This document shows positions 9,040 to 56,860 of a stretch of DNA of 64,000 bases, one piece after another. The stretch is taken from positions 45,271 through 109,270 of the forward strand of contig JAQMWT010000416.1 of assembly GCA_029834535.1 (NCBI GenBank). Reading direction: 5' to 3'. The notes under the pieces are model-generated. The model made no database searches. It was given only the letters and a program-made list of their open reading frames with translations, and was not told the DNA's origin. The DNA is from Chrysophaeum taylorii. Taxonomy: Eukaryota; Sar; Pelagophyceae; Pelagomonadales; Pelagomonadaceae. Each line of letters begins with the position of its first letter. The first letter of the stretch is position 1. Both the position numbers and the translations under genes were made by a program.

Positions 9040-9145
9040 TGTTACGACTGGAATGAGGCGTTAGACTAGCGATAAGAGAAAGACGTAGGGATACTGGATA
9101 CGTGGTGATACGTGGTGCAGGGGTAAGTGTCATAGCTTCTTCACA
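9040..9145 (-). repeat. Copia-1 LTR (3' LTR of truncated copy)
   Basis: Begins TGTTACGACTGG and ends CTTCACA. It matches the 96-bp LTRs at 17041-17136 and 20997-21092 but contains a 10-bp tandem duplication (GATACGTGGT). In coding orientation it reads TG...CA. It lies immediately downstream of the minus-strand RNase H remnant. Confidence 0.8.
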
Positions 9146-9333
9146 CAGGTGCTGGAAAAGAAAGAAAAGGAAAAAGGGGTAAGTGAGGTCCTCACACAGG
9201 TGCTGGAAAAAGAAAAAGGAAGAAGAGGGGGAAAAAAAAGGGGTAAGTGAGACGCTCACCGATGAGAAGCTTTGAGGAAGACGTCAATAGAGGCATTGTG
9301 GCAAGAAAGAAACAACAGAGATCAGGGCGAAGA

Positions 9334-10410
9334 TCACGAAGTGAGGTAAAGAGCACGAAGCCGGAGGAAGGAAGGAGCTTCCGTACTGCGGGTGAAAATG
9401 TCGCTAAGATTGTGAAGGCGGGGTATGAGTTTGAGATCAGTGATGTGGTTGCGATGATATTCGGCGGTACTGTAAAAGCGAATGTCAATATGGCGGGTGC
9501 GCCGTGTGAGACATTGGAGACGGACTTGGGTGACGGTGGTGCTATTAACGACATACATTGGGACTGTGTGACGAGGGAGATCAAAGTCATCAAAAAGTTT
9601 GAGAAGCCAAGAGAGCTCAGCAGTAGCAGCGTAAAGAGCGAGCAATTCAGCTTCAAAAGAAAAAAAAAAAGCGAGCAAGTAAGTACTGCGAGCGGGAGCA
9701 GTAGGCTATCATAGAGCCAGAAAGGAGAAAACAAAAACCAGTTGTGGAGTGGCGGTCATCAGGGTCGTCGGCCCAGCTGGAGTCGGAATAACCACAGAGA
9801 CGAAGGGTAGAATCGCGACCAAGAATAAGGGCAAGATCCTGAGAACCGTCGAGATAACGCAGAGTGTGGGATAAAGCGTGCCAGTGGGGTGTACCAGGAT
9901 TGTGGGAAAAACGCGCACACTGATTGACGGACCAAGTGATATCAGGGCGAGTCATGATGGAAATGAAGAGGACACAGCCAACAATACGGCGAAAAGGGAT
10001 GCGCGCCATGAAGATGTGATCTGGAGAACCAGGAGCAGGACAATCTGCCGCAGAAAGATGAAGGCCTTTGGGAGCTGGAGTTTGTTCAGGTTTACTGTTG
10101 ATGAAGCGATTTTCGGTAAGGATTTCACGGATAGCATGAGATTGGTCAAGAGTGAGGGTTTTCTGAGAGCGATCACGCGTAATGCGAAGACCAACGTAAG
10201 AGGTGAGATCAAGCTCATTGACGTCAGTGAAGGTTCGGAAACGGAGGAAAAAGGCTTGGTAATGGCCAATGCAATGACGAGGGTGCGCCACAAGAAGATC
10301 ATCAACGACAAGAACGAGACGTAGGACAACGGTAGAATTGAGCACGAGCTTGTAATGGCAAGTGTCACCAGATCCGCGAACGAAGCCACAATCATTGAGA
10401 AGGAAGCGCA
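9334..10410 (-). pseudogene. Ty1/copia RT-RNase H fragment (truncated copy)
   Basis: The minus-strand frame 10411-9653 encodes the RT palm with a VVDD catalytic box (LVLVVDDLLVAHP), the connection (FRRIVGCVLFISIMTRPDI) and the start of RNase H (YSDSSWADDPDDRHSTTG). An A/T homopolymer near 9655-9671 shifts the frame, and RNase H continues in 9678-9334 (FEAELLALYAATAEL). There MYVVNSTTV replaces the MYVDNSTTV of related copies, so a catalytic Asp is lost. The 5' side (to the right) stops abruptly at about 10410, where sequence switches to gypsy element A. Gag, protease and integrase are absent. Non-functional remnant. Confidence 0.85.
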
Positions 10411-11222
10411 ACCCCGTGGTAGTTCAGGTTTATGGGCAACAGCACCATGCGATGCAAAAGAGCCTGAGCACAGTTGAGAACCGCGTTTACGCTCGCTTGT
10501 GCAAGATTGAAGACCTCCAGCGTTCACCGCCGAAACGAGCGGGAGCTTCTACGACTTGGGGAGTCCCTACAGTTACGCCTTCTCAAAGTTCGAACAGCGA
10601 TGCCTATGAAGTGATAGCCTATGCTGCGCGCACGATGAAGGTCGAGCCTGGGCGCACTTAATGCGTGCCAGTCGCTCTTTCAGACCCCATGGAAACCGGG
10701 CAAGTTTTCGTTGCTACGTCTTCTGGATACGAGCAACCTGGGGTAGTCGATGGAATGTGTTCTTCTCCCCCCTGTGAGGATCACGACAAGTTCGCAGCTC
10801 GAGTGGCGATCTCCTCTACCCAGGATGTGCCGACCGTGATTACTCAAGGTGAAGTTCTCGCTTTGGGCGATATAGATCGCTTTGATGACGAGCTGAATGT
10901 TGAAACGGTCGACGATTTAACGAAGGATGGTGAAGCCAAATCAGACAAGGCTAACCTATCGTTCACTGTTTCGGTCGCAAGCCATCTGACTCGAGGCGAT
11001 GCGGCTCCCGAACCGATGCTTTTGAGCTCGGTGCAGAAGGCGTCTCCTTCTGCCGATAAGAAGAAGTATTCTCGTCAAGAATCGCTCGGTAACGACGATT
11101 CGACCGACGAACCGACGAGGAGGAAAAGAAATGCCGAGAAGTTACAGAAGGCGAGAATCGCCGAAGGCTTGAAAAGTCCACTGGGTGCCGATCACGTATC
11201 GCAAGGTTGTGATGCTCTTTAG
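10411..11222 (+). pseudogene. Gypsy A: post-protease beta-rich domain and linker
   Basis: Homologous to 53236-53997 of element E2. The segment YAARTMKVEPGRT..CVPVAL..TGQVFVATS resembles the beta-rich region that many Ty3/gypsy polyproteins have between protease and RT. A TAA at 10659-10661 interrupts it where E2 reads Tyr. A charged Ser/Lys/Glu linker follows to about 11178. The protease and Gag are missing because the element is truncated at 10410/10411 by the copia fragment. The frame of this part is one nucleotide off from the downstream methyltransferase frame, as in E2. Confidence 0.7.
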
Positions 11223-12112
11223 CGGCGCCGGAGGAAGTACTTTAGGACTGCAACGAGCGAATGAGTTGTGCGGGACGTCGTTTCGAGTCGTCCTTGCTCT
11301 TGACTCTTCAACAGCTGCCAACAAGATTAACCAGAAGAATTTTCTGAAGATACCTGTGGTTCAGCACACTCTCTGCGGACGATATGACTCGACCCTCCGA
11401 TTGATCAAGGCTTATTTGCCTGAAGCGGAATGGTCATCGTCGATGTGTATGGCGTCTCCACCCTGCGTTCATTCAGCACTCTGCGACTTGACTTCCAGAG
11501 ATGTTGGCAGGGGAGTTACGGCCACTAGTTGGACGATGAAGCTGTGCAAAATGGCTGGCTTCATGATGTGGCTGATTGAACAGGAGGCGTCCATTATTTC
11601 TTATATAGCGCGTTTACACCCTTACGTGTACGTCGTCAATTTTCATGATATCACGCCCACTTTGATGAGCTCTCGCGTGCGATTGTTGGTTTTCAGTCAC
11701 CCACTGCACTTGCAAGAGGCTCCGAAGACATGTGCGAATATGCAACAAGTTTGCTGCAGCTTTAGGTTACGCTCATGAACGCCACCTGCTCCAGCTGAAT
11801 AATCTCGGCTCGTCCCAAGAAGCAACAGATACGGCTTACACCGTTACGCGAGTTCCTCTTCGTTTGGGACCGCATCGCTCGGACACTCAGCTTTTGACTC
11901 TCGAGATGACGGCCGAGTTGCTCACGATGCCGCTGGGCCATGATTGGGCTAGCTTGTCTAAGACAGATTCGTTCAAACATTTAGCGTCTGTCGTCCCTCC
12001 AGACACTCTTGCGATTTTAGCAGTCGATCTGCACAACTCCGTGACCAGACGTTCCCGCCAAAATGGCGAAGTCATGCCGACCGCGTTGAGCCCGACAGAT
12101 CGATCCTTTTAG
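11179..12112 (+). pseudogene. Gypsy A: C5 cytosine DNA methyltransferase domain
   Basis: Motifs of C5-methyltransferases appear in the correct order. Motif I, the SAM-binding loop, is LFSGAGGSTLGLQRAN (about 11215). Motif IV with the catalytic Cys is ASPPCVHSA (Cys codon 11464-11466). A motif VI-like Glu is LIEQEAS (about 11572). Motif VIII is SSRVRLLV (about 11670), motif IX is TQLLTLEMTAELLTMP (about 11887) and motif X is ASVVPPDTLAIL (about 11983). A short target-recognition stretch lies between VIII and IX. In known enzymes the Cys attacks C6 of cytosine and SAM donates the methyl group. A frameshift near 11745 separates motif VIII from IX, so this copy cannot make the whole domain. It sits between the post-protease domain and RT. 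Motif VI is EQE rather than ENV, which is unusual. Confidence 0.85.
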
Positions 12113-13510
12113 TAGTATTTGCGAATTTCCGACACCACCCTTCGTCACGTACAGACTCCAGTTAAATACGCGTACTCGTGTCGTTAAGTGGGTGTCAAAA
12201 GATGATCTCCAGGATCCCACTAAATGGGAACCGCCAGATGTCCCTATGCTTCCGCTTCCAACAGATGCGCCGGGGACGGCTCATGCTTTTTCTGCTGCCC
12301 CCCCCCCGACAATCGAGAGTGGACGTTCCGCCGGATCCTGAACCCGAACAGGAGCCGAACGTAAGGAGCGAGCCGAATGTGCGCGTCAAATGTGAAAAGA
12401 TCAATAAGAGCCACCCTGAGGTGAGGTTCAAATACGAAGAAAAGTTCGATGTGCCATGGAAGGATGCGCCGCGCGACGCGGACAGTGTACCGTTACCACA
12501 GACTCCGGAGCACGTCAAGGACAATGATGCGATGAAAGTCATAACTTCGACGAAGGAAGAAGTCGAAAAGGTTGTTCGAGAACTGGGACGACAACCCGCA
12601 TCTGGATGAGGATGCGAAGATGATGTTGAGCCACTGCGTGCAATACGCGTGGGCCTTTTTTGATCCGATTATGAGACCCGTGGACTCGCCACCGGTTTCT
12701 CTACGATTTAAAGACACAACCCCACGACCGATCAAGATGACGCCTTATAGGTTGACGCCAGCAAAGCTCGAGTGTCTCAGAAAGCAGATCACTGAGTGGT
12801 GTCGCGATGGAGTCATCCGACCGGCGAACTTTCCGTGGGGATTCCCTGTACTGATACTGCCTAAGAAGGGAGCAGAGGCTGGGACGTCGAATGCTTTTCG
12901 TGCTGCTGTTGACTTGCGTCGGCTCAATGATCAGCTGGTCAACGACAGTTGGCCGAATATTCGTCAAGGTGATGCTTTGGCTTTTCTTGCCATGCGCCGT
13001 TGGCGGACGTGCATTGATATTCGAAGGGGTTATCATAACCTACGTTTGGACGCCGCCGCTCAGGACGCCGTTACGATGGTTAGTCCACTTGGAGCCCATA
13101 GTTTCTTGCGCTTGCCTCTGGGAGTAAAAACAGCAGGAGCTCTCTTCTGTAAGCACATGGCTAGCGATTTGTCCTTATTGTCGACGATATTATGATGGGA
13201 TCGGATGAACTCCACCGACATTTACAAGTCTTGATGGAAGTGCTGTGCCATTTAGCGCAGCGAGGATATAGTGGACGAACTTCGAAGTTCCACCTCCTCA
13301 AGGATGAAATCGAGTTTTTGGGACACATTTCGACTCCGGAAGGCTTGAAGCCGAGTCCCAAGACGTTAGAAGCGTTGCAGCAGAAGCCGATTCCCGGTAC
13401 GTTGCCGAACACGTCCCCGAAGACCCAGATTCGATCTTTCATCGGTATGAGCAGCTATTGCCGCCGATATGTGAAGAGTTATTCGAAGATTGAGGAGCCG
13501 CTGAGGCGAT
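12113..13510 (+). pseudogene. Gypsy A: linker and reverse transcriptase
   Basis: After a linker rich in Pro/Glu/Lys, the Ty3/gypsy RT is readable: DGVIRPANFPWGFPVLILPK, then AAVDLRRLNDQL, then FLRLPLGVKTAGALFC, then the VDDI box at about 13182. Compared with E2 and B about 30 nt are missing just before the active site (near 13170), and the linker/RT boundary near 12585 has a small indel. The thumb/connection (SFIGMSSYCRRYVKSYSKI) follows in 13192-13510. The RT would copy element RNA into cDNA; this copy is inactive. Confidence 0.85.
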
Positions 13511-14036
13511 TGTGTCTTGAAGGCGTTAAGTTTGAGTGCACGCCTGAGTGCCAAAAGCCGTGGGACACGATCATCGAAGCTTTGGTGGACTCTCGCGGAG
13601 TTTATCATCCTGACTACGATCTTCTTTTTCAGATCCGCTCGGATGCTTCCAAGGATGGTCTGGGCGCGTATCTTTTTCAGCTCGTGGAAGTCAATGACGA
13701 AACCGGCAAGGTGACACGAGAGGAACGAGTAGTTGAGTATTGGAGCCGAGCTGTGCCGAAAGAGATGCGGAACTATGAGCCTCGCCGGCTAGAGCTACTG
13801 GCGGTTATTCTTTCTCTTGAGCATTTCCGCTCTTATATCGAAGGTCACAAGACGATCCTTGAATCGGATCTTCTCAACTGGACGTCTTTACGAAGCACTC
13901 GTCTGCGCAGTTGGCTCGATGGGCGATGCGGCTCGCCAATTTTGATCCTGAATTGGGTTACAAACCAGGGAAGTCGCCGGAAATGAGTATCCCTGACTGT
14001 CTCTCTCGCAATCCTATAGATCATGTCATCGAGACG
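13511..14036 (+). pseudogene. Gypsy A: RNase H domain
   Basis: Typical Ty3/gypsy RNase H (RT_RNaseH type) with IRSDASKDGLGAYLF, then the Glu in RRLELLAVILSLEHF, and a degraded ETDHRNLTF equivalent (ESDLLNWTS) near 13865. A small deletion there moves the frame; the remainder (ARWAMRLANFDPELGYKPGK) continues from 13911 up to DCLSRNPIDH. The degraded third motif shows that this copy is inactive. Confidence 0.8.
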
Positions 14037-15590
14037 GATGAGTATGGTGAACCCTTGAACCACGCGTATCTAGTGTGCCAAGAACTTCCTCGCCCTGTCT
14101 ATGATGAAGGAGTACCCTTACCTGGGTGCCATGTCATGCTGTCATTTGTTACGACTGAGTTACCTGTGGAGGAAGAAGAAGAGGATCTCGATGATCCGAT
14201 GCAATTGGTCACGTCTCATGCTACGAGACAACGTCAGATGCAACGTCTGCAGACCCAACCTAGTATTTTCCGTGATGCCGATGATTACCAAGAGTACATC
14301 GACAAGATTCCGGATAATTTGACTTTGGAAGAGATAGTCAAAGAGCAGATCACTGATGCTATTTGCGAGGACATTCGTTATCGCATGGCTCAGGGCCATT
14401 CTCTTCGTCGGTACGGAGCCAATTATCGCTATCAAGTGGTGAAAGGAGTTTTCTACCGTGCCGCACCTGACTTGCACCCGATGATAGTCGCACCCCGAAC
14501 TTTACGGACGCGCATCATCCGATTATACCATGACACACCTCTCAATGGTGGTCATATGGGTCGTCAAAGTACAGTGCAGTCGATACTTGAACTTTTTTTG
14601 GTGGCCCCACATGTCTAATGAGGTGGGTGCTTATATTGCTGGTTGCATAGTGTGCAAGAAAGCTCGTACGCCTGAACCAAAGAGAGCAGGTCTTCTTCAG
14701 CAACCGGTGTATGAAGGTGATTGCGCCGTCCTTTGTATGGGTTTGTTCGGACCTTTGCCCAGTGCTGGTCCCGAGACATATCTGATCATCTTTTTTGATC
14801 CATTTTCTCATTTCTTGATTCTTGACGTACTACACCACATATATATTGACTGCTGAGTCTATCCTCGAGTCTTTTGTCGTCTTCTGTCGCGATTATATTA
14901 TTCAAAGGTTATCTACCTCAGAGGATTCGTACCGACAATGGGAAAGAGTTCGTCAACAAGTTGATGGAAGAGTTTTGTCATCTCTTCAATGTTCGGTGTA
15001 GTACCACGATTCCGCATCATGCCCAGGCTAATCCTGCGGAAAGGGTCAAGCGCTTTATCAAGGCTTTCCTCCGTGCGTGTCTTCAAAACCGCAAGATCAC
15101 GGACTGGCCCGAATTCGCGGAGTACATTGCTTTTTGCTACAATCGCAAGTTTATTCCGGGAACTCAGATTCCACCTTTCATGCTTCGTCTCAACCGGCAG
15201 CCTCTATTGCCAATTCGTCTCAACCGGCAGCCTCTATTGCCAACAGATTATACGACCATGGATCTTGATGTCCGCCGCCTGCCGAAAACTCGCTCCGATG
15301 TTGTGGCAGAGACTCGCGAGAGGCTGAAATTCTATACCGCTACGGTGAACGAAGCTCGCGAGAAGGCTCTTCGTAAACAACGTCTCGCTTACAATGCGGA
15401 CCATGTCGATGTGGAGTATGAAGAAGGTTCACATGTTCTGCTCTACATCCCTTTCCTTCAGAACAAGCTTCGACCGGAATGGCGCGGTCCATTCGTTATT
15501 TTGGAGCGCTTGTCTCCGGTCACTTACAGGATTGAGCCTCTTGATTCTCCTCCTGAACGCCCCTGTGATGGTTTCTCCAGTGGTCGATCG
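14037..15590 (+). pseudogene. Gypsy A: integrase
   Basis: A His-His-Cys-Cys zinc region is visible (YHDTPLNGGHMGRQ and CIVCKKA). It is followed by the catalytic core with RTDNGKEF and NPAERVKRF as second Asp and Glu. The first Asp position reads MGLFGPL, where B has MDLFGPL, so it is mutated. The core is also frame-broken at about 14600 and 14850. A GPF/Y-type module follows (WRGPFVILERLSPVTY, about 15480). A 30-bp tandem duplication at 15186-15243 repeats LNRQPLLP. Integrase inserts cDNA into the genome; this copy is inactive. Confidence 0.85.
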
Positions 15591-16048
15591 AGCTATGCCC
15601 AAACCCAAGGAGACCTTTCGGGCGGTAAGTTCGTTGTCTTTCGGATTCCAGATAACAAACGGTCCGATTGGCGAAAGAAGATTTACGTTGCTGAAGTTTA
15701 TGAGTCCTATGATTTTGTGAATGATCGAGTCGCTCTGCATTTTTATGCTGATCTTGGTCCCCATGACAAGGTTTCTTATTACAAGCCTAGCTCACATCTC
15801 TCTACTCGCAAGCTTAAGCCGGAATATTAGGACGTGGACGGTGCCAGTTTCACCGACAAGTCCAAGGTCAACAACAGTACCACTCCTTGTGTCACCGACT
15901 TCGCCCTGCATGAGATCGATGTGTTGATTCCTAAGTTCACTTTGCATAGTGGACGCGTTCCCGAGCCTGTTGTTGAACGTGTCTACAAGAAGATTCGTTC
16001 CCGAGATGCTCATTCAGCCAAGGCCCGTGATTCTCGCCGGACTCGCTG
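15591..16048 (+). pseudogene. Gypsy A: conserved C-terminal domain after GPF/Y module
   Basis: About 130 residues downstream of the GPF/Y module are conserved in A, B and E2, and the last third also in E3. Landmarks are RKKIYVAEVYE, RVALHFYADLGPHDKVSYYKP and HEIDVLIPKFTLHSGRVPEP. It is not a recognisable chromodomain (no aromatic cage pattern). Here a TAG at 15828-15830 interrupts it. Its position suggests a targeting or chromatin-binding role, but that is only inference. Confidence 0.6.
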
Positions 16049-16079
16049 AGGGCAGCTCGTATTCTCACCAGGGGAGTCC

Positions 16080-16402
16080 TGTGGCGGCAACTCCTGACCG
16101 CTAAGGCTTACCCTCCCTTCTCGAGGCTTGATACCCGTTCAACGGGACGCCTTTTCCTACTTTCCTAGTGACATCATACCTCTCCCTCATGAGAAGCGTA
16201 TCTTGCAGCATTCTTGTAGCATTTTTGCTATCATATACCATCTCTCCATCTTGTTGAGAGGCTTGGTGAGCGTGAGCAAGGTGTGTGGCGAGCATGTCCG
16301 ACCCCGAGTCCGTGTTTTCCTCGTCCAGTGAGGTCTAGGACGAGTCGGTGAGTACCCCCTTTGTCACCCGGGGGTCGGGAGAGGTTTCTTTCTGTGCCGC
16401 CA
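16080..16402 (+). repeat. Gypsy A 3' LTR
   Basis: Begins TGTGGCGGCAACTCC and ends TGTGCCGCCA. It is preceded by a purine-rich CAGGGGAG tract that fits a polypurine tract. It matches the E2 LTRs (38079-40898 split, and 58762-59078) over its length. About 323 bp. The element's 5' LTR is missing because of the 10410 truncation. Confidence 0.85.
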
Positions 16403-16670
16403 TAGGTGTCGTGAGGATCGCGAAGGAGGCTTCTTGGGCGGAAAGATGAGATTTTGCTTGGGCGAGGTCAGATTTGGTTTCGTCGTGAGCGCGGGCTTCA
16501 GCGTCAAGGCGGGCGTTGGCGCGGGCGAGTGCGGTTTGGGTTGCGATCACGGCGTCGTATAGAACTTCGGGGTTCATAGAGGAGGGAGGAAGGGTGGTGT
16601 TGTCGGAGAAGTTGCCAGGGCCGTCACAACCATACGTGGCGTAGTTGCGCGGTGACCCCCCCCACCACAC
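16403..16670 (-). pseudogene. Gag-like fragment with ATYGCDGPG motif
   Basis: The minus-strand frame reads NYATYGCDGPGNFSDN, then a coiled-coil stretch (ALARANARLDAEARAHDE). It matches 36787-38019 up to LDAEAR, then differs. The sequence is cut by the gypsy A LTR at 16402. It is bounded on the right by a C/G homopolymer run and foldback module H4. Remnant of the same family as 4756-8369. Confidence 0.6.
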
Positions 16671-19711: not shown

Positions 19712-19759
19712 GGCCCAACGCCAAAAATGGGTATGCGGGAACGCGACATGGATACCATG

Positions 19760-32371: not shown

Positions 32372-32612
32372 GTTCTGATGATGTCAGTTTTCTATATGAC
32401 ATCATCTTCCCTGATTTCTGTGATTCAAGTGTTCTTGATCATAAAGCAACAGCCGATCCTCAAGTTGTGAGGACCAGGCACGGAAGTTGTTTGTGGTTGT
32501 GTGGCGGGAGAACGGCCATCCTCGTCCAGTGACTCCACCAAGGGCACGGACGCGAGCGGCGAGCCAGGATTCGAAGGCACGCCAGGTAGCCCCAAAATTC
32601 TCCTTACGCCAC
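32372..32612 (-). repeat. 241-bp repeat flanking gypsy B, left copy
   Basis: Nearly identical to 36757-37000. It contains a 10-bp perfect hairpin (GATGATGTCA / TGACATCATC). On the minus strand it encodes about 70 residues (ATWRAFESWLAARVRALGG, AWSSQLEDRLLLYDQEHLN) ending at a stop. The join to gypsy B sequence is abrupt at 32612/32613. Confidence 0.75.
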
Positions 32613-32633
32613 ATGTGGCGGAGGATATGCTCA

Positions 32634-34109
32634 GGCGAAGCTTTGCCGTCAGCGTTGAGTCCTGCAGACCGACCGTTTGATTATTATTTGCAAATTGATG
32701 AAACCACCCTTCGTCACGTACAAGTTCCGCTGTTAAACACGCGCACACGTGTCGTAAGGTGGGTGTCGACTGATGATCTCCAAGATCGCACCAAATGGAA
32801 ACCTCCAGAGGTACCGTTGATTCCGCCTGCAACAGATGAGCCGGGGAAGTCACATGCTTCTTCTGCTGCCCCCCCCCGACAACCAAATTTGGACGTTCCG
32901 CCAGATCCTGAGCGAGATCGGGAACCAAAGATTAAGAGCGAGCCGAGTGTTCGTGTGAAAGGCGAGAGGATCAACAAAAGCCACCCGGAAGTGAGACTAA
33001 AATATGAGAAAAAGTTCGATGTGCCATGGAAAGATGCGCCGCGCGATGCTGAGGGTGCACCGCTGCCGCAAACTCCCGAGCATGTCAAGGATAACGAGGC
33101 TATGAAAGTTCAAGTTCCTACGAAGGAAGAAGTTGACAAGGTTGTTCAGGAGCTGGGAATTCCTGACAATCCGCACTTAGATGACGAGGCGAAACTGATG
33201 CTCCGTCACTGTCTGCAATATTCTTGGGCCTTTTTCGACCCGATTATGAGACCTGTAGACTCACCTCCAGTGTCTCTACGATTCAAAGACGCGAATCCGC
33301 GACCGATTAAGATGGCGCCCTACCGATTGACGCCTGCGAAGCTCGATTGTCTCCGCAAGCAGATCAGCGAGTGGTGCCGGGATGGAGTCATTCGTCCGGC
33401 CAACTCACCTTGGGGCTTTCCTGTGTTGATGCTTCCGAAGAAGGGAGCTGAGATTGGAACGTCAAACGCGTTCCGTGCTGCAGTTGACTTACGTCAGCTC
33501 AACGATCAATTGGTCAATGACAGTTGGCCGAACATTCGACAAGATGATGCTTTAGCCTTTCTCGCGATGAGACGATGGCGGACATGCATTGATATTAGAT
33601 GGGGATACCACAACCTTCGTCTGGATCCGGCAGCGCAAGACGCTGTCGCGATGGTTAGCCCACTTGGCGCTCATAGTTTCTTGCGATTACCTCTAGGTGT
33701 GAAGACGGCCGGAGCTCTTTTCTGCAAGCAAATGGCGAGCGACCTTTCGAAATGGATGTATCAAGACTTGGTTGCGTTTGTTGACGATATTATGATGGGA
33801 TCCGACGATCTTCATCGACATTTGCAAGTTTTGATCGAAGTGATGTGTCATTTGGCACAGAGAGGGTACAGCGGTCGAACCGCGAAGTTCCACCTTCTCA
33901 AGAATGATATAGAATTTCTGGGACACATGTCTACCCCAGAAGGCTTGAAGCCGAATCCGAAGACGCTGGAAGCACTGCAGAAGATGCCGATTCCAGGTAC
34001 TTTGCCGAATACTTCCCCGAAGACCCAGATACGCTCTTTCATCGGCATGAGTAATTACTGCCGGCGATATGTGAAGGGCTACTCGAAGATCGTGGAACCG
34101 CCGAGATGA
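32634..34109 (+). pseudogene. Gypsy B: linker and reverse transcriptase
   Basis: Continuous frame from the linker (DDLQDRTKWKPPEVPLIPP, KKFDVPWKDAPRDAEG) through complete RT: RPANSPWGFPVLMLPKKGAE, AAVDLRQLNDQL, RLPLGVKTAGALFCKQM, FVDDIMMGSDD with both catalytic Asp, and the connection SFIGMSNYCRRYVKGYSKIV. It ends at a TGA (34107-34109) where A and E2 have an Arg codon (CGA), a single-base nonsense change. This is the best-preserved RT of the family in the window. Confidence 0.9.
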
Positions 34110-34640
34110 TTATGCCTCGAAGGTGTAAAGTTCGAGTGGACGCCCGAGTGTCAGAAAGCTTGGGATACGATTAATGAAGCTTTGGTTGATTCCCGCGGAG
34201 TCTACCACCCCGATTATGATCTGCCTTTTCAGATCCGATCCGATGCTTCCAAGGATGGACTTGGAGCGTATCTCTTCCAGATTGTCGAAGTCAAGGACGA
34301 TGCCGGAAGAGTGACTCGAGAAGAACGAGTGATTGAATATTGGAGCCGAGCTGTGCCGAAGGAGATGCGCAATTACGAGCCCCGTCGGTTAGAGCTGCTG
34401 GCAGTTATACTTTCTCTAGAGCACTTTCGAGCCTACATCGAAGGGCACCGTACTGTTTTGGAGACCGATCACCGAAATTTGACGTTTTTACGTAAGGTGA
34501 CGCACTCGTCTGGGCAGCTTGCTCGTTGGGCGATGCGCCTCGCCAATTTTGACCCTGAACTTGGTTACAAGCCGGGAAAGTCACCGGGAATGAGTATCCC
34601 TGACTGTCTCTCTCGCAACCCGGTAGATCATGTCATCGAG
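34110..34640 (+). pseudogene. Gypsy B: RNase H
   Basis: Same frame after the TGA. It has IRSDASKDGLGAYLFQ, EYWSRAVPKEMRNYEPRRLE with the catalytic Glu, and ETDHRNLTFLRK. The tether ARWAMRLANFDPELGYKPGK and DCLSRNPVDH follow. All the acidic residues expected for this RNase H type are present. It degrades element RNA in the RNA/DNA hybrid. Confidence 0.9.
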
Positions 34641-36150
34641 ACTGACGAGTTTGGAGAACCTTTGAACCACGCTTATTTGGTGTTCCAAGAGCTTCCCCGA
34701 CCTGTTGATGACCGAGGAGTTCCCGCCGCCGGCTGCCACTTCATAATGTCGTTTATTACGACCGAACTGCCGGAAGACGAGGAAGAAGATCCTGAAAAGG
34801 ATCCGATGAAACTGGCTACGTCTCACGCTACGAGACAACGTCGGAAGAACCGTGCGCGCGATGCGCCACAGATCTTCAAGGACGCAGCCGCTTACAAGGA
34901 TTATATCGATAAGATACCCGATAATATGACGCTCGCTGAGATTGCACGTGAGCAAGAATCTGATGCTACTTGCGAGGATATTCGCTACCGAATGGCCCAA
35001 GGTCAGACGCCGCGACTCTCCCGAGCGAACGAACGATACGAAGTCGTTAAAGACGTTCTTTACCGCATTTCTGCTGATTTGCACCCGATGATTGTTGCAC
35101 CTGCTACGTTGCGCAAGCGCATTATTCGACTCTACCATGACACTACGGTTAACGGTGGTCATATGGGACGTCACAGTACCGTCCAGGCTATCCAAGAACG
35201 ATTTTGGTGGCCTCACATGTCGAACGAAGTTGGAGTCTTCATTGCTGAATGTTTTTAGTTTGCCAGAAAGCTCGTACGCCTGAGCCGAAACGAGCTGGAC
35301 TCTTGCAGCAGCCTGTCTACGATGGTGATGGTGTTGTTCTTTGCATGGATTTATTTGGACCCTTGCCCAGCGCTGGTGGTACCGAGACGTATCTTCTAGT
35401 ATTTTTTGATCCGTTCTCGCATTTCTTGATTCTGGATGTTTTGAACGATGAGACTGCTGAGTCTGTCCTCGAGTCTTTTGTCATTAACATTCTCCTCAAG
35501 GGCTACTTGCCCCAGATGATTCGTACCGACAACGGTAAAGAGTTCGTGAACAAGTTGATGCGCGAGTTTTGCCATCTCTTCAACACACGATACCAAACTA
35601 CGATTCCCTATCATGCCCAGCCGAACCCGGCTGAGCGTGTCAACCGATTTATCAAGGCCTTCCTCCGTGCTTGCCTTCAGGGCCGGAACCTCACGGATTG
35701 GCCTGACTTTGCTCATTATATTGCGTTTTGTTATAACCGCAAGTTTATTCCAGGCACGCAGATTTCTCCCCTTATGCTGCGCCTGAACCGTCAGCCGATG
35801 CTGCCGACCGACTACACGCTTATGGATTTTGATACGCGATTATTGCCGAAGACTCGCGCTGATGCAGTCGCCGAAACTCGTGAACGATTGAAGTATTATA
35901 CGAAGATCGTCCGCGAGGCTCGTGATAAAGCTTTGAAGAAACAACGATTGGCTTACAATGCTGATCATGTTGATGTTGAATACAAGGAAGGATCGCACGT
36001 TTTGCTCTACATTCCTTTCCTTCAGAACAAACTTCAACCGGGATGGCGAGGGCCGTTTATTATCAAGGATCGCCTTTCCCCGGTCACCTATTGGATTGAG
36101 TCTCTCGACTCTCCGCCCGAAGAACGACGTGTTCATGTAAGTCAGATCAC
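34641..36150 (+). pseudogene. Gypsy B: integrase
   Basis: A variable acidic spacer is followed by the zinc region (YHDTTVNGGHMGRH; CFVCQKA) and the core triad: MDLFGPLPSA (Asp), RTDNGKEFVN (Asp) and NPAERVNRF (Glu). Then come VLLYIPFLQNKL and the GPF module (GWRGPFIIKDRLSPVTY). A one-nucleotide insertion in a T run near 35252 creates a stop at 35256-35258 and splits the zinc region. The core itself is uninterrupted in the frame 35249-36274. Confidence 0.9.
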
Positions 36151-36643
36151 GCCTGTGATGGTACCTCCGATCGTTGATCAAGCCATCCGCAAACCCGAAG
36201 AAACCTTCCGTGATGATTATCAGCACGGTAAGTTTGTTGTTTCCCGGATTCCCGACAAGAAGCGCTCTGATTGACGCAAGAAGATTTATGTTGCTGAAGT
36301 TTATGAGCCTTGCGATTACCAAAATGATCGTGTTGCTCTACATTTCTATTCCGATTTGGGTCCGAACGATGATGTCGCTTATTTCAAGCCGACCTCTCAC
36401 CTTTCGCACCGCAAGCTCAATCCCGAGTTCAAGGACGTTGAAGGTCGAAGTTTCACCGACAAGTCCAGAATTTCTTCCAACACAACTCCGTGTGTCACGG
36501 ATTTCGCTCCGCACGAGATTGATGTGTTGATCCCCAAGTTTACTTTACGCAGTGGCCGAGTTCCTGAACCGGTCATCGCCCGCGTTTACCAGAAGATTCG
36601 TTCACGAGATGCTCGTAAGGCGAAGCCGCGCTCCTCGCGCTAG
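36151..36643 (+). pseudogene. Gypsy B: conserved C-terminal domain
   Basis: TGG to TGA at 36272-36274 interrupts RSDWRKKIYV. After it, RVALHFYSDLGPNDDVAYFK, SHLSHRKLNPEFKD and HEIDVLIPKFTLRSGRVPEP continue to a TAG at 36641. The domain is collinear with A and E2 and ends in a basic Arg/Lys/Ser tail. Family unknown. Confidence 0.65.
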
Positions 36644-36684
36644 CACCTCGCTGGGGCAGCTCGAATTCTTACCAGGGGAGTCCT

Positions 36685-36756
36685 GTGGCGGCAACTCCCG
36701 CCTCCTAAGGCTTACCCCTCTTCTAGGCCCCCCCCTTTTCAGGGGCACCCTACTCC
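36685..36756 (+). repeat. Gypsy B 3' LTR, truncated
   Basis: Starts TGTGGCGGCAACTCCC after a CAGGGGAG purine tract. It is cut after about 72 bp by the 244-bp repeat. Confidence 0.8.
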
Positions 36757-38019
36757 GTTCTGATGATGTCAGTTTTCTATATGACATCATCTTCCCTGAT
36801 TTCTGCGATTCAAGTGTTCTTGATCATAAAGCAACAGCCGATCCTCAAGTTGTGACGACCAGGCACGGAAATTGTTGTTTGTGGTTGTGTGGCGGGAGAA
36901 CGGCCATCCTCGTCCAGTGACTCCACCAAGGGCACGGACGCGAGCGGCGAGCCAGGATTCGAAGGCACGCCAGGTAGCCCCAAAATTCTCCTTACGCCAC
37001 ACGCGGGCTTCGGCGTCAAGGCGGGCGTTGGCGCGGGCGAGTGCGGTTTGAGTTGCGATCAATGCGTGGTAGAGAACTTCGGGGTTCATAGAGGAGGGAG
37101 GAAGGGTGGTATTGTCGGAGAAGTTGCCAGGGCCGTCACAACCATAGGTGGCGTAGTTGCGCAGGTGGAGGCGTTGGTCTTCGGAGAGGAGTGTGTCATG
37201 TACCGGGGTAATAATGGCAGTGGTGTCCGAGATGGGGACTTGAGTGTGGAGTGGTGGTGGTGTGTTCGATGAAAGCGAACAAGGTGATGGGGATGGGGTG
37301 GTGCCTGGAGAGGCAGACGAAGGTGGGGTTGTGGTTGGGGTGACGACCGGGATGGTCGGTGGGACGATCGGGACGGTCGGTGTGGTGACCGGGGTGGTCG
37401 TGGCTTTGGGTGGTGTGACCGGAGTGGTCAGAGGTGTTGATGGTGCAGAAGCGGCGGCTATAGTTGGAGGAGCTTGCGGGACGGTCGGTGCGGTGACCGG
37501 GGTGGTCGTGGCTTTGGGTGGTGTGACCGGAGTGGTCAGAGGTGTTGATGGTGCAGAAGCGGCGGCTATAGTTGGAGGAGATTGCGGGACGGTCGGTGCG
37601 GTGACCGGGGTCGTCGGGGCTTGTGGGGTTGAAGCAGGAGCGGCGGCAACAGCGAGAGGAGCTGCGGCGGCTGGAGGGGGGGTGTTGCTGGTAAGAGCGG
37701 CGAGTTGGTTCTGGAGCTGAGTCTGTAGCTGATGGAGCTCCTGCTGAAACTGTTGCCGAAGCAGAGCTCGCTCAGCGGCGTGAGCAGCGGCTAGCCGGTC
37801 GAGTTCGGCACGGTCGGCGTCGAATAGGGCACGGAGGATGGCGATTTTCGCGGCGAGTTCGTCGAGTTCATCATCGTCGAGTTCATCATCGTCGAGTTCA
37901 TCATCGTCGAGTGCAGCATCGTCGCTGGCATGGGCGTCGTCGCTGGCATGGTCGGCGGCGAAAGCGTCTTCTAGTGGCGCGATCGCTTGGTGCGGATCTT
38001 GGTCGTGGTTGCGCGACAT
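36757..38019 (-). CDS. Gag-like ORF with ATYGCDGPG motif
   Basis: A 410-codon minus-strand frame from ATG at 38019 (MSRNHDQDPHQAIAPLED). The order is: an acidic repeat (three DDDELDD-type units), a coiled coil (residues about 55-95), a Pro/Thr/Ala-rich linker with two near-identical about 120-bp tandem repeats (37380-37620), NYATYGCDGPGNF, a second coiled coil to LDAEAR, and a C-terminal part encoded by the 244-bp repeat. It is unbroken. A structural protein of a non-autonomous retroelement is a possibility by architecture; a host protein cannot be excluded. Related pieces lie at 5208-7365, 16403-16670 and 32372-32612. Confidence 0.5.
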
Positions 38020-39893: not shown

Positions 39894-39902
39894 CCATTGA
39901 GA

Positions 39903-41872: not shown

Positions 41873-42508
41873 AGCCGTCCATATTCGTTCGTAGGCGAGT
41901 GAAGCTACCCCCGTCAGGGTCTTTGTCTTCTGGTCTTAAGCGTCGTTCTTCAGCAGGAGCGGTCGCAGAACAAACGTCAGTCTCCTCTAGTTTCTATGGT
42001 GTGGCTTCTCGCGTATATCAACGGCTATCTCGAACACCAAAACTTCTCGTCGAGCAGCAAAATTTGCCGGCTACTGTTCGACTCGCGCGGTTCACCGGTG
42101 CGACGGACTTACACGGCACAAGCCTTTTGCCTCGCCAGAGACTATGGTTGCTCTCAGAGACTATGGTTGGTCTCTCCGGCCTTCTTTCTGCCTCTTTTCG
42201 GAGACTGTGGGTGGTCTCCTGGGCTCGCTTTTTGTCTTGAGACGCACAAAAATCCGCTCAACGTCCGAGTAGTAATCCGTCAGCTTGTTCTTTCGCTATC
42301 TCATCCTCCGCTTGATCCGAAAAAGGGAGACGTTCGACGGAGTCAACTGGCTCAGATTCGTACGAGAATTGAGGCGGTTGTACGTTCTGTCGCGTACTAA
42401 CTGCTACCATAGCTGCGGTGGGTCCGCTGTCCGTCAGCATAGGCATCGTCACCGAAGAGAAGGTGAAGCAAGCGGTGCCAGGGACATCGGTGGGGATTTC
42501 TTGGGAAA
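41873..42508 (-). other. E3: spacer where integrase should be
   Basis: From 42508 to 42258 a minus-strand frame matches in position the acidic spacer that precedes integrase in A/B/E2 (it ends DEIAKEQADG, compare EEIAKEQITD). From 42257 to 41873 there is no integrase motif; a short repeat GAGACTATGGTTG(G/C)TCTC occurs at about 42138-42175. Integrase appears to have been replaced or deleted. Confidence 0.6.
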
Positions 42509-43465
42509 TCAAAAAAGCTTCATTGATCGGTTCCCGTCTTCATCTTTCTCGATCAATTTGTCGATAGGGTTGCGCGACAGACAATCCGGAATACGCATGC
42601 CAGGGGAGCTTCCAGGTTTGTATCCGAGCTCCCGGTCGAACGCAGCAAGCCGCATAGCCCATCGTGCTAACTGTCCAGACGTATGATTCGAATCCCGCAG
42701 AAACGTTAAATTACGATGATCCGCCTCTAACTTCGTATGATGACCTTCGATATAAAATCGGAAATTTTCGAGAGCAGAGAGTACTGCGAGGAGTTCCAGG
42801 CGCCGAGGATCATACTTCCTCATCGACTTAGGCACGGTTCGACTCCAGTACTCGATAACTCTCTCTTCGATTCTTTCTCTTCCATCGTCGTCAACGACTG
42901 GTACTTTTTGAAATAGGTAAGCACCCAACCCATGCGCGGGAGCATCAGTTCGAATGTAAAAAGGCAACGAGTAATCAGGATGGTAGACGCCCTTCGACGT
43001 GACAATAGCCTCGATGATGGCATCCCAAGCTTCCTGACACTCTTTCGTCCACTTGAATTTCACGTCCGGCAACGTCAGTTGTCTTAATGGCTCTGCAACT
43101 TTCGCAAAATTCCTTACATAACGCCGGCAAAAGGTCCCCATTCCAAAGAAAGATCGCACTTGCTTCTTAGGGTCAGCATCCGACAAAGTGCCAGGAATTG
43201 GCATGTGTCTGATGGCTTCTAAAGATCTTGGTGATGGAAAAAGTCCGTTCGGGGTAGATAAATGACCCAAAAACTCAATGACTTCTTGCATAAAATGAAT
43301 CTTCTTGATCTTGGCGCTGTACCCCTTCAAGGCGAGATGGGGAATAACTTGCACAGGGCACTGCAAGTGATTCTTTGTATCTGCGTGACCGGCGAGAATA
43401 TCGTCGATATATGCCACGAGATCACGATATAGCCATCGCGATAAGTCAGTGTTAGTTGCTTGCAA
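42509..43465 (-). pseudogene. E3 RT (C-terminal) and RNase H
   Basis: The frame carries YIDDILAGHAD (RT active site), FFGMGTFCRRYVRNFAKV (connection), IRTDAPAHGLGAYLF, YDPRRLELLAVLSALENF, ADHRNLTFLRDSNHTSGQLA and DCLSRNPIDKL. All RNase H acidic positions are retained. A small indel near 43470 separates it from the N-terminal RT frame. It aligns with A/B/E2 throughout but with many substitutions. Confidence 0.88.
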
Positions 43466-44200
43466 AATAAACTTCCGGCTGGTTTGACTCCCAAAGGTAG
43501 ACGCATGTAGCTGTACGCTCCCAGAGGACTAGTGAAGGTGACCACATCTTGTGCATCCAGCGACAATCGTAAATTGTGATAGCCCCAACGAATGTCCAAA
43601 CTGGAACGACAAAACTTGTCAATGAGAAACATCAACGCGTCAGCCATGCTCACACTCGGCCAGCTATCATCCTTGAGCAATGCATTGAGGCGCCGTAGGT
43701 CGACAGCTGCTCTGTAAGCATTGGAAGTGCCAGGCTCAGCACCTTTCTTGGGAAACATCAAAATAGGGAAACCCCGTGGAGAATTCGCGGGACGAATAAC
43801 TCCGTCTCGGGTCCATGCTTCAATCTGCATCCGCAAACATTCAATCTTTTCTTTCGACAACCGATATGGCGATATGGCGAGAGTTTGACGGGAGTCGGGT
43901 TCTCTTCTTTGAACCGGAGCGTCACTTCAGGTGAATCAACAGGTCTCATCACGTCATCGAAAAATGCCCACGAATACGAGATTAAATGCTTCATCATCAG
44001 CTTCTCGTCATCATCTAAGGCAGGATGCTCTGTAATACCCAATTCAGTCATGACCTCTTCGACCTGCGCGACGGTCGGAGGGATGACCTGCATGCTCACC
44101 TGATCCGCTAAATGAGGAGGCATCACCGGTGAAGGTTGACCATGTTCGTCGTGAGGCGCGTCCGCCCACGGAACGTCGTACGTATTGAAATACGCTGGTC
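43466..44200 (-). pseudogene. E3 RT N-terminal part
   Basis: The linker end YDVPWADAPHDEHGQP (about 44180-44130) corresponds to FDVPWKDAPRDA of B. Then VAQVEEVMTELGI, MRPVDSPEVTLRFKEENPTP, RDGVIRPANSPRGFPILMFP, AAVDLRRLNALLKD and MRLPLGVKPAGSLFCKQ follow. A frame change lies near 43870, in a duplicated GATATGGC. Gypsy RT fingers and palm are otherwise readable. Confidence 0.85.
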
Positions 44201-44209
44201 GCTCTTTCG

Positions 44210-44441
44210 CGGTTGGCAGGCGGAACGTTCGCAGCGGGACGGGGTATGGCCGGGGGGCGCAGACGGAAGGTTATCGACGAGTTGGTTGTCAGTCACATCG
44301 CGGTCTCCTCGTCGCATGGCGACAAGCTTGATGATCACTCTCCGCCGGCCCACCTTTCGGCGCCCCTCGTCTACAGGCCCGTGATTCCGGACTGGCTCCT
44401 GTCGGTCCGGCCTGGCTCCCATGCTCGGGAGAGGTCTGAAG
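44210..44441 (+). repeat. Dispersed repeat R, copy 3
   Basis: Inserted in the methyltransferase-RT linker of E3. Same sequence as 8651-8880 reversed, ending in GAGGTCTGAA and a GTTAGTTTAGTTAGTT tail (44441-44456). The palindrome is CCGGACTGGCT / TGTCGGTCCGG. The element's own coding sequence resumes on both sides. Confidence 0.7.
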
Positions 44442-44456
44442 TTAGTTTAGTTAGTT

Positions 44457-44766
44457 CTTCTTCATCAGCTGCGGAGGGCTGGTTATCGACTTGGTTGCTC
44501 TGCATAACAGCAGTGGCGACGGTGCCCCCCGCAAAAGATGAAGCCGTCCCAGGCGATGTAACTGAAGGCGGTGGCGGGGTGGTGGTGGCAGCAGCGGATG
44601 GTGCAGGACTCGCAGAAGAATAGAGTTCATCGGGCGCAATCCATGATACACTTCGAGTGGCAGGGTCGAGCGTTGGAATGCGCGACTCTACAGCAAAAGG
44701 TGAAAACCGTATAATATGGTGATCAGGTTGGGCTAGCGTAGTCGTCGCAATATTCCGCAACTTACC
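44457..44766 (-). pseudogene. E3 linker between methyltransferase and RT
   Basis: The minus strand reads ATRSVSWIAPDELYSSASPA, matching TRTRVVKWVSKDDLQDPTKW of E2, followed by Ala/Pro/Thr-rich sequence. The frame then enters repeat R, which destroys the linker. Confidence 0.7.
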
Positions 44767-45660
44767 CTAATTTCGAGGTGAAGGTTCAAACGAATTGTGC
44801 ACTGCTAGCGCAATCCGCGTCATAGTCGCGGGTGGCACCATACTGCCAAGCATCTTCATAGCTACTGTCTCGGAAACTGTTGCACCCCATTGCCACGTAG
44901 CAGGAACGGTCATAATTTCCTGGTGCACCTGCAACGTGAGTGGACGGGTGTTCGAGAAATGAGGTCCTAAGCGGAGCTTATTGCGCGTCACCGTGAAGGC
45001 AGGGCCGATAGCCGGGCGCGTAGATGAGAAACTGCTCACTATAATGAGCGGGTGACCACCTGTAAATCCCAACGCTGGGCCAAAACGGTCTCGTAAATTC
45101 GGTGGTACACGCGATAATAACGGCAGTTCCAAGCGAACATTGCAAGCAAGTAGGCGCGTGCGCGAGCACAGCAGCTCTGGCGTGAAACTATGAAAATCAA
45201 CAATACGCGGCACATAAAATTGGTGATGCACAAAAGGGATCACTGATGGTTCCTGCTCGAGTGTCCATCGTCCAATCACATAAGGTGCGTTGCGGAAATG
45301 AGCAGACGCAAGAAATGAAGGCGCCGTTGCGTGAGTCCCTGTAGTGCAAATTGGCAGTCGATCCATAGATACGGCGGACTGGCGTGAAAATACGCTTACA
45401 ATCTATGTAAAGGGCGACACACCGCAAGTCGCAATCCTCTCCCCAAGATCAGGCGACAAAGCAAGGAATCGAGAAAAAAGAGTTCAAGAGTGGCTCGGGC
45501 TTGAGGCCAAGCATCCAAAGCCAGGACCAATTGCTGGTGAACAGCGCATCAAACGGACGACAACGGATAGACACCACATCCAACAAAGGTAGAAAACGAC
45601 AAAGCAAAGTAGGTGATGGTATCCAAACCAAGGAGGCTAAGTGCGATAAAGCTCCTTAAC
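44767..45660 (-). pseudogene. E3 methyltransferase remnant (motifs VIII-X)
   Basis: The frame 45366-44767 contains a motif VIII-like CSRTRLLACNV (about 45150), AFTVTRNKLRLGPHFSNTRP leading to motif IX (RPLTLQVHQEIMTVP, about 44930) and motif X (LGSMVPPATMTRIALAVHNS, about 44800). The segment between VIII and IX is longer than in A/E2. Upstream (45660-45370) the frame is broken. A weak motif I-like stretch may be present, but the PPC motif was not found. Catalysis is lost; the shared C-terminal half shows common origin with the A/E2 domain. Confidence 0.7.
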
Positions 45661-46611
45661 AGTCCCATCCTATCTGGAGTTTCTTGTACTTTTTCAGGAG
45701 TAACCTGGATATCCCTCTGTCACTCAAGCATCCCCTCGACTTTTTTTTTTCAACAGCAGCCGTAAGAGTGGCATGACACACGTCATCAGTGGCTTCTAGC
45801 TGCATGTTGACACATCCTTCATGCGGTATGATCTCGACTTCGACCACCGGGACTTCGGGGTCGATACCAATGGGTTCTCGACTTCGGGGTCGATACCAAT
45901 GGGATCGTCACCAATGTGCTCCACAGCCACATGAACTTCGTTGGGCTCATCGGCACAATACGATGAATAGGAACCAGGTACAAGGCGGAGATCTTTGATG
46001 AGTGACCAATAAGGTCGGAATACGTGACTCTTTTCCAGCGGCACATCGCACTCCATCTCCAAGAAGTACGGTTGGTTTGGAAGAAGAAATCGAGTACTCG
46101 TCACGTACGCGAAATGAGGGATGATATCTTCCTCGTCTGCAGGGCATTCACGTTGGTCTTCAGCTTTTCCAGCAGTCTGATCACCGGAAGGAATGTGATG
46201 GTGGTTCGCTCTGATACGAATAGAGCGCAATAGACTGTCATAACTCCACGGTTTACCAACTGGCGTCCAAGTTTGGATGTTTCCGTGCACAGCAAGCTTA
46301 GCTGTCGGGAACATCTGCACTACCTGCGGAGTCGCATCGAATGCATCATTGTAAAGGACAATTCCATGCTGGTCTTGTGGCGAGGCGGAAGTCCGATTCT
46401 TGAGAACTCCAATGGTCACTTCAGAACGCCGAAAAATAGCTCTGTCGCATAATCCAAAATCGTACCCAAGAGTCGTAGTTCTCGTGCTCCTAATAGTAAC
46501 TGCCCATTCGTTTGACCAACGAAGAACATGAGCAGCATGGATGTCGTCGGCACCAAGGAGATCCGGAGGATGACCCATTCTCGAATAGCAGCTCCCGACC
46601 TCCTGACCCAT
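45661..46611 (-). pseudogene. E3 post-protease beta-rich domain
   Basis: The minus-strand frame to 45796 includes FPTAKLAVHGNIQTWTPVGK and HFAYVTSTRFLLPNQPYFLE followed by PLEKSHVFRPYWSLIKDLRL. It corresponds in place and pattern to 10411-11222 and 53236-53997. A 28-bp tandem duplication near 45840-45895 repeats EVENPLVSTP-coding sequence out of phase. Role unknown; it is typical of gypsy polyproteins between protease and RT. Confidence 0.65.
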
Positions 46612-46994
46612 TTAGAGTACGAATCGTAGGAGTGGCTGACGATAGATGATTTTGCCGTCACGATCAAGTTTGCGATAACAAGCGGTGATCGATGGGAATC
46701 AGCCATGCCATCCAAACCGGCAGCGATGATGGAATATTTCGAACCATCTTGCGAAGAGATAGCCACTGGCACATACGTCAAAGAGGCGGATCTCGTGCCA
46801 TCGTGCCTTACGGCTTTATTTTCACGATGGTCGGGATCCTGAGTGATATTCGACGCAGTCTGAGGGCGAAAATTCTCGAAATCCGAAGAGATAGAAGGGT
46901 GAGCAACATAACGCTCGGCACAGTCGTCCCTCGGTGGCACTATATCCATGGCAACCAAGGTATCTTGTCCCACACGAACAATCGTATACCCCAA
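46416..46994 (-). pseudogene. E3 protease
   Basis: Retropepsin-like order: a strand (YVPVAISSQDGSKYSIIAAG), the active-site loop LDGMADSH, and the C-terminal GQLLLGARELRLLGTILDYA, like the LLGxDxL of retropepsins. The loop has DGMAD where the family normally has D(T/S)GAD. E2 has the same DGMAD. The frame changes near 46610. It would cleave the polyprotein if active. Confidence 0.65.
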
Positions 46995-56330: not shown

Positions 56331-56860
56331 TTGTGTCTTGAAGGCGTTAAGTTTGAGTGGACGCCTGAGTGCCAAAAGGCATGGGACACGATCATCGAAG
56401 CTTTGGTGGATTCTCGGAGTTTATCATCCTGACTACGATCTTCTTTTCATATCCGCTCGGATGTTTCCAAGGATGGTCTGGGCGCGTATCTTTTTCAGCT
56501 CGTGGAAGTCAAGGGCGAAACCGGAAAGGTGACACGAGAGGAACGAGTAATTGAGTATTTGAGCCGAGCTGTGCCGAAAGAGATGCGGAACTATGAGCCT
56601 CGCCGGCTAGAGCTCCTGGCAGTTATTCTTTCTCTTGAGCATTTCCGCTCTTATATTGAAGGTCACAAGACGATCCTTGAAACAGATCATCGCAACTTGA
56701 CGTTTTTACGAAAGGCGAAGCACTCGTCTGGGCAGTTGGCTCGATGGGCGATGCGGCTCGCCAATTTTGATCCTGAATTGGGTTACAAGCCAGGGAAGTC
56801 GCCGGGAATGAGCATCCCTGACTGTCTCTCTCGCAATCCTATAGATCATGTCATCGAGAC
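56331..56860 (+). pseudogene. E2 RNase H
   Basis: Frame-broken at the start (about 56415-56500, where the SDASKDGLGA equivalent is damaged to VSKDGLGA). Then the long frame from 56502 reads VTREERVIEYLSRAVPKEMR, RRLELLAVILSLEHFRSYIE, ETDHRNLTFLRKAKHSSGQL and DCLSRNPIDHV. The catalytic Glu and last Asp are retained. Confidence 0.85.

Follow-up and report, generated by a model that had tools for sequence, protein, structure and literature searches.

A predicted C5 cytosine methyltransferase domain between the protease and reverse transcriptase of Ty3/gypsy retrotransposons in Chrysophaeum taylorii

As a rule, transposons are on the receiving end of cytosine methylation. Retrotransposons that carry a DNA methyltransferase (DNMT) of their own were described by de Mendoza et al. 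2018 (PMC5890265) in LINE and DIRS elements of the dinoflagellate Symbiodinium and in a Gypsy element of the charophyte Klebsormidium, in agreement with the original prediction for the locus studied here, which had mentioned such elements from both groups. According to the portion of that paper available to us, Ka/Ks values lie under 0.2 and the DIRS type gives CG methylation in yeast; KnitGypsy-Dnmt3, the Klebsormidium element, gave no methylation in yeast, a result which the authors judged inconclusive. A later article (PMC12344493) cites the 2018 work, in the part available, for DNMT3 in LTR Copia and DIRS elements, whereas the accessible text of PMC5890265 says Gypsy.

Here, we report a Ty3/gypsy copy at positions 10405-16408 of a 64,000-nucleotide stretch of the Chrysophaeum taylorii genome (hereafter the window; contig JAQMWT010000416.1, positions 45,271 to 109,270 of the forward strand), together with its relatives elsewhere in the genome. 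The interval 11179-12112, for which a C5 cytosine methyltransferase inside the polyprotein had been predicted, was read in all three forward frames. The genome searched was a 70.8-Mb assembly of 697 contigs. Copies in which the whole domain was open formed a set of 23 sequences (15 of clade A, 8 of the sister clade C), 20 of them distinct, and are referred to as the open copies. Two profiles were used, A1 from clade A and A2 from a two-clade alignment of ten members. For element anatomy twelve long loci were fetched and, as they were picked mostly for long open frames, they are not a random sample. The chance-control model combined six sequences, five phage C5 methyltransferases plus the DNMT2-like protein of the host, none of which was picked for likeness to the domain. 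Values of dN/dS were calculated by the Nei-Gojobori method within one subfamily of 9 open copies, giving 36 pairs for the methyltransferase and 6 to 28 pairs for reverse transcriptase (RT), RNase H, integrase, protease, the linker before the methyltransferase and the N-terminal region.

A predicted C5 cytosine methyltransferase domain is encoded at window positions 11173-12100, within the pol region of the element (Table 1). The motifs quoted in the original prediction are present in the interval but are split over two frames by a frameshift at about 11708-11748, with motifs I, IV, VI-like and VIII in one frame and motifs IX and X in the other. The window copy is a pseudogene, being truncated at its 5' end at 10405, frameshifted within the methyltransferase and disturbed by several further frame changes. 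The predicted placement between the protease region and RT holds here only on the downstream side, where RT, RNase H and integrase follow, since the truncation has left this copy without protease and N-terminal region; the protease is found upstream in other copies.

Table 1. Features of the window copy, related copies in the window and the copia-like family
Feature	Position	Strand	Evidence
Methyltransferase N-terminal part, motifs I to VIII, frame 1	11173..11748	+	84% identity to residues 1436-1627 of open copy P0001; Pfam DNA_methylase E 0.0021
Motif I LFSGAGGSTLGL	11215..11250	+	Translation; glycines at domain positions 18, 20, 21, 25 in 23/23 open copies
Motif IV ASPPC, putative catalytic Cys codon 11464-11466	11452..11466	+	Cys in 23/23 copies; aligns on PCQ of known C5 methyltransferases
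Motif VI equivalent, E-Q-E replacing E-N-V	11578..11586	+	Aligned with ENV; E in 22/23 copies; EQV in metagenomic relative P0002
Motif VIII R-x-R	11674..11682	+	Both Arg in 23/23 copies
Methyltransferase C-terminal part (TRD region, motifs IX and X), frame 2	11708..12100	+	65.6% identity to C-terminal part of open copy; no Pfam match alone
Motif IX-like LTLEMTAELLTMP	11894..11932	+	Translation
Motif X-like ASVVPPDTLAIL	11984..12019	+	Translation; S-x-V-P in 23/23 open copies
Variable linker protease/methyltransferase; 5'-truncated element begins here	10405..11159	+	Comparison with other copies
Reverse transcriptase, first part	12590..13174	+	Pfam RVT_1 E 0.00044, 20.5 bits, below cut-off in broken copy; 91% to P0001
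RT end and RNase H	13171..13893	+	Pfam RT_RNaseH_2 E 1.5e-20
Integrase region (H2C2, rve), interrupted by frame changes	13896..15959	+	Pfam and copy comparison
3' LTR region of window copy	16080..16408	+	Matches outer ends of L015 and L020, and LTR edge of C5 copy
Copia-type fragment (type by eye) adjoining 5' truncation of gypsy copy	9040..10404	-	Reading of frames
Second copy, same clade as the 10405-16408 element	52592..58642	+	Protease region 52592-53377, methyltransferase 53987-54903, RT downstream; frameshifted, with stops
Sister-clade C copy	42447..46877	-	Methyltransferase fragment 44779-45300; divergent match at 44770-45402
Same-family copy with internal deletion (methyltransferase and everything before it gone except an LTR piece)	32409..37001	+	Copy comparison
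Copia-like family with own C5 methyltransferase	L039 (G000:C314:151800-158800) and L040

Taken alone, the window fragments give little signal in standard searches: the N-terminal part has a weak Pfam DNA_methylase match (18 bits against a cut-off of 22) and no PDB sequence match at E up to 10, and the C-terminal part has no DNA_methylase match at E up to 1. With the chance-control model, the window fragment scored 21.7 bits, whereas none of its 100 shuffles exceeded 1.4, and six open copies from elsewhere scored 21.4-30.2 bits; for all seven sequences the best of 100 shuffles was 2.7 or lower. The clade C fragment in the window scored 12.5 bits against a best shuffle of 0.9. The printed matches to this model cover the motif I and motif IX-X regions and not motif IV.

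A further element at window positions 17041-21092, judged copia-type by eye and with terminal repeats starting TGTTACGACTGG, gave no match to either the gypsy or the copia methyltransferase query. Pieces of this type also lie at 9040-10404 and at about 39900-40500.

Evidence on the identity of the domain came mainly from the open copies. Pfam DNA_methylase (PF00145) scored above its cut-off in 22 of the 23, the exception (L020) reaching 21.7 against 22 bits, which bears out the predicted C5 methyltransferase identity. In clade A the score was 22.5-27.2 bits in the 14 of 15 copies above cut-off, with the matched stretch confined to the motif I region; all eight clade C copies scored higher (35.4-39.9 bits), their best stretch running from motif I over PPC in six and lying at motifs IX-X in the other two. 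Compared profile to profile with six known enzymes, A2 gave a probability of 97.4% (E 1.6e-11) over 262 columns, with ASPPC placed on PCQ. The NCBIfam model dcm was matched at E up to 1 by nine of the ten A2 members, with 6.9e-5 as the best value; the single member shown in full had 18.5 bits, far below the model cut-off of 100.65. When A2 was searched against 5.8 billion proteins, 17 matches were obtained at E up to 10, and 16 of these carried a precomputed PF00145 annotation (best E 5.2e-4). The seventeenth was P0002, a metagenomic relative (E 5.6e-35). In a multiple alignment of the window piece, a second window piece, P0002 and the 16 PF00145 proteins, the motif I glycines, P96 and C98 were invariant. 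The Cys of PPC, as anticipated, falls on the catalytic Cys of known C5 methyltransferases in both the profile comparison and this alignment. We are therefore nearly certain that the gypsy domain belongs to the C5 methyltransferase family.

Residues expected of an active enzyme are largely retained. The catalytic Cys, the glycines of the motif I cofactor loop and both Arg of the motif VIII RxR were found in all 23 open copies. Motif VI of C5 methyltransferases reads ENV. At this position the open copies have Glu in 22 cases and Lys in one, the context being EQE, and the Gln of motif VIII is absent. P0002 has SPSC at the PPC position and EQV at motif VI.

More distant affinities are less clear. 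In searches of the PDB, DNMT2 chains head the list for A1 at a weak E of 0.07, with unrelated chains in the same list, and the sole match of A2 was a bacterial cytosine-specific methyltransferase (E 0.51). A tree built without a DNMT3 reference gave the gypsy domain no firm place among the DNMT families. Neither a full-length polyprotein search nor the clade A profile found relatives of the methyltransferase region at the cut-off applied, whereas A2 did at a looser one, and pattern-limited scans of IMG/VR and of one genome per prokaryote species gave no relatives; a recent viral or bacterial donor was thus not found in those collections.

The anatomy of the element is consistent across copies. 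All twelve long loci have protease, methyltransferase, RT and RNase H in this order on one strand, and integrase follows in eleven, the twelfth (L014) being cut off by the end of its contig; L010 has only a partial protease match, and several loci have broken frames. In one copy a single frame of 3067 codons spans protease, methyltransferase, RT, RNase H and integrase, so that copies with RT downstream in frame, the existence of which was in question, are indeed present in the genome. Another copy on the same contig has a frame of 3063 codons. The 3067-codon copy, the only one examined in this respect, is bounded by two direct LTRs of 336 bp that are 100% identical, suggesting recent activity; no matching 4-6 bp target-site duplication was seen beside these LTRs. 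Pfam matches in the open polyprotein P0001 comprise RVT_1, RT_RNaseH, Integrase_H2C2 and rve; its protease gave no Pfam match and was read by eye. Ty3/gypsy elements of this genome, as judged from these translations, encode, between protease and RT, a predicted C5 methyltransferase domain some 310 residues long. The layout had been expected to be unusual; a methyltransferase in Gypsy Pol has a precedent in KnitGypsy-Dnmt3 (PMC5890265, text available in part), but the order protease-methyltransferase-RT does hold in all twelve long loci here.

The usual motif of such proteases is D-T/S-G. A protease-like motif of the form VDGMADV or LDGMADS occurs in both clades (L009, L029 and window 46877-46386), and the protease region bearing this atypical motif is itself under purifying selection.

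Genome-wide, a 201-residue fragment of clade A had at least 150 matches (150 of 839 candidate places were scored and all 150 matched), with no stop within the match in 130 of the 150 listed. Sister clade C, which was reached via the divergent window copy, had at least 155 (150 of 770 candidates scored). These counts are of matches and not of insertions, because some places are pieces of one copy. Complete domains of the two clades are 40-43% identical. In a search for gypsy lineages without the methyltransferase, the 12 loci that were fetched belong to clades A and C. Four loci (L053, L055, L056 and L061) are gypsy derivatives that lack all or part of the methyltransferase, with differing deletion ends; one deletion is found at two loci with homologous flanks and is probably a single insertion. 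We found no sign that such derivatives have multiplied, and they were not taken as proof that the domain is dispensable, the shared deletion being probably one insertion.

Median dN/dS within the subfamily was 0.176 for the methyltransferase, comparable values being 0.138 for RT, 0.172 for RNase H, 0.136 for integrase and 0.231 for protease, against 0.55 for the linker before the methyltransferase and 0.70 for the N-terminal region; the pairs share copies and hence are not independent, and the values are biased towards constraint because only copies with an open domain were used, a filter that applied to the linkers as well. The linker after the methyltransferase, compared within the subfamily for three sequences only, was constrained like the domain (0.182). 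Between subfamilies, where synonymous sites are near saturation, the values were 0.062 for the methyltransferase (0.058 over 54 pairs in a wider set), 0.021 for RT, 0.033 for RNase H, 0.035 for integrase, 0.087 for protease and 0.195 for the linker before the methyltransferase. At this distance the methyltransferase thus has two to three times the dN/dS of RT, RNase H and integrase and one third of that of the preceding linker. The gypsy methyltransferase is under purifying selection, with its main catalytic residues retained. Keeping a methyltransferase of their own under such selection suggests that methylating something belongs to the life cycle of these elements.

CpG decay was considered as a footprint of self-methylation and was not seen. 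The observed/expected ratio of CpG was 1.25-1.37 in nine gypsy loci and 1.09 over the whole window, without depletion in either. Differences of the C/T type per conserved C, counted over 36 pairs, were 0.057 for CpG, 0.043 for CpA, 0.051 for CpC and 0.076 for CpT, in a test limited by coding constraint. In the nine loci of subfamily g1 (L009-L019), these differences were thus highest at CpT, and at third codon positions CpT compared with the other contexts at 0.19 versus 0.08-0.09 on the plus strand and 0.086 versus 0.04-0.075 on the minus strand. The CpT excess may come from codon bias.

A search of the genome with PF00145 returned 124 matches. These included the gypsy domains, two genes identified by eye as DNMT2-like (L021) and DNMT5-like (L022), and some 55 further places of another type, of which L023 and L024 were read. 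This other type is a copia-like family. RT was examined in one copy: a single frame of 1868 codons contains a PF00145 domain (E 3.8e-7, 30.3 bits) and, downstream of it, RVT_2 (E 6.6e-29). The methyltransferase sits between a protease-like IDGGAS motif and the RVT_2 reverse transcriptase; the protease and integrase pieces were read by eye and had no Pfam match at E up to 5. Queried with this methyltransferase, the genome gave at least 151 matches (150 of 510 candidates scored). PCQ and ENV are present in all five aligned copies (six were given and L048 was left out for a stop), and dN/dS over 10 pairs was 0.128. The copia and gypsy methyltransferases did not group in the tree, in which the copia row stands on a very long branch and its place is unsure. 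By its motifs and Pfam matches, a Ty1/copia family of this genome carries a putative C5 methyltransferase different from the gypsy one.

The host DNMT2-like gene (L021, G000:C634:7324-11301) overlaps an open frame on the opposite strand with a light-harvesting domain, the best PDB matches of which are chlorophyll a/c types; a gene of this type opposite the DNMT2-like gene indicates that the host is a red-plastid alga.

How the domain is to be understood depends on whether it is a methyltransferase at all, whether it is active and on what it acts. That the motifs are coincidental, or belong to another Rossmann-type fold, is scarcely credible: the window fragment alone and one of the 23 open copies do fall below the Pfam cut-off, and clade A matches are limited to the motif I region, but clade C matches span motif I over PPC or peak at motifs IX-X, and the profile comparison (97.4%), the PF00145 annotation of the A2 protein matches, the multiple alignment and the shuffle control all argue for a true C5 methyltransferase. 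A domain that is no longer catalytic and has been kept as a nucleic-acid-binding or targeting module would account for the change of ENV to EQE, the loss of the motif VIII Gln, the single copy with Lys in place of the motif VI Glu and the SPSC of P0002. It is nonetheless very unlikely: all 23 copies, drawn from two clades about 42% identical, retain the Cys, the motif I glycines and the two motif VIII Arg. The enzyme is probably active in young copies.

For an active enzyme, the substrate could be RNA, such as the tRNA that serves as primer or the packaged genomic RNA, methylated in the manner of DNMT2. DNMT2 chains were the top PDB profile matches of clade A, though weak ones (E 0.07), the copies show no CpG decay, and RNA methylation was raised for the LINE family in the accessible text of PMC5890265; against this, the gypsy domain did not group with the host DNMT2-like row, in a tree that gave it no firm place, and the only PDB match of the two-clade profile (E 0.51) was to a bacterial cytosine-specific enzyme. 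We regard RNA as an unlikely main answer. Action on host chromatin or on competing elements, with the domain maintained through its effect on the host methylome, appears quite unlikely: the many copies would offer a high potential dose, and such elements coincide with an unusual methylome in Symbiodinium (PMC5890265, in the part available), but selection on each element's own copy is most easily explained by a benefit in cis, and CpG in the window, at 1.09, is not depleted.

We lean towards a polyprotein-borne C5 methyltransferase that would methylate the element's own cDNA in the particle as the best explanation. The position in Pol, the purifying selection and the conserved catalytic residues favour activity inside the particle, with the element's cDNA as the simplest target, and position in Pol together with synthesis of cDNA before integration is the argument made for DIRS elements in the available text of PMC5890265. 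In such a scheme the domain would be produced within the Gag-Pol polyprotein and carried with RT and integrase into the particle, where cytosines of the new double-stranded cDNA would be methylated before integration; the element would gain because its cDNA would be protected or accepted in the host nucleus. As genomic copies show no CpG decay, the marks would have to be short-lived or in a non-CpG context. Against this explanation stand the EQE and the missing motif VIII Gln, the lack of CpG depletion and of any concentration of C/T differences at CpG, a between-subfamily constraint below that of RT, RNase H and integrase, a following linker (three sequences) constrained like the domain within the subfamily, the existence of derivatives without all or part of the domain, and the yeast result for KnitGypsy-Dnmt3 given above. 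That the element's own cDNA is the main substrate is plausible but falls just short of probable, and the mark itself may be short-lived, occur in a different context, lie on RNA or not exist. It is conceivable, and we offer it tentatively, that two unrelated superfamilies, Ty3/gypsy and Ty1/copia, each captured a different C5 methyltransferase in the same slot directly after the protease and that both were kept under selection. If true, this double capture would indicate that methylating cDNA inside particles is a general step of the retrotransposon life cycle in this host, invented more than once and possibly one that counters a host defence attacking unmethylated cDNA. As the genome is about 71 Mb in size and holds many such copies from two retrotransposon superfamilies, it becomes testable what the target of methylation is and what purpose it serves.

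In the literature searched, we found no description of a stramenopile gypsy or copia element that bears a C5 methyltransferase, nor of any genome whose gypsy and copia families carry different ones. Among photosynthetic stramenopiles, a mobile element with a DNA methyltransferase is known in Ectocarpus, namely Sola1 (PMC12477816, seen in part); there the enzyme is an accessory protein with ParB-like and N4C/N6A methyltransferase domains, encoded by a separate gene of a DNA transposon. SymbioDIRS-Dnmt3 and SymbioLINE-Dnmt of Symbiodinium, as far as the available text of PMC5890265 describes them, share with the present elements the hundreds of retrotransposon DNMTs per genome and the purifying selection on both DNMT and RT, but belong to the DIRS and LINE classes and not to Ty3/gypsy, and CG depletion is discussed for SymbioLINE whereas CpG is not depleted here. 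Another of the closest known cases is KnitGypsy-Dnmt3 of Klebsormidium nitens (PMC5890265, same portion of the text), which likewise has a C5 methyltransferase in a Ty3/gypsy Pol polyprotein under purifying selection; its repeats are DIRS-like, in contrast to the plain direct LTRs of the one C. taylorii copy examined, and its domain is assigned to Dnmt3, in contrast to the present domain, which our tree without a DNMT3 reference assigned to no DNMT family. The host lineages also differ. What is new relative to these known cases is another host group, a sole close database relative found that is metagenomic, and two retrotransposon superfamilies carrying such domains in a single genome.
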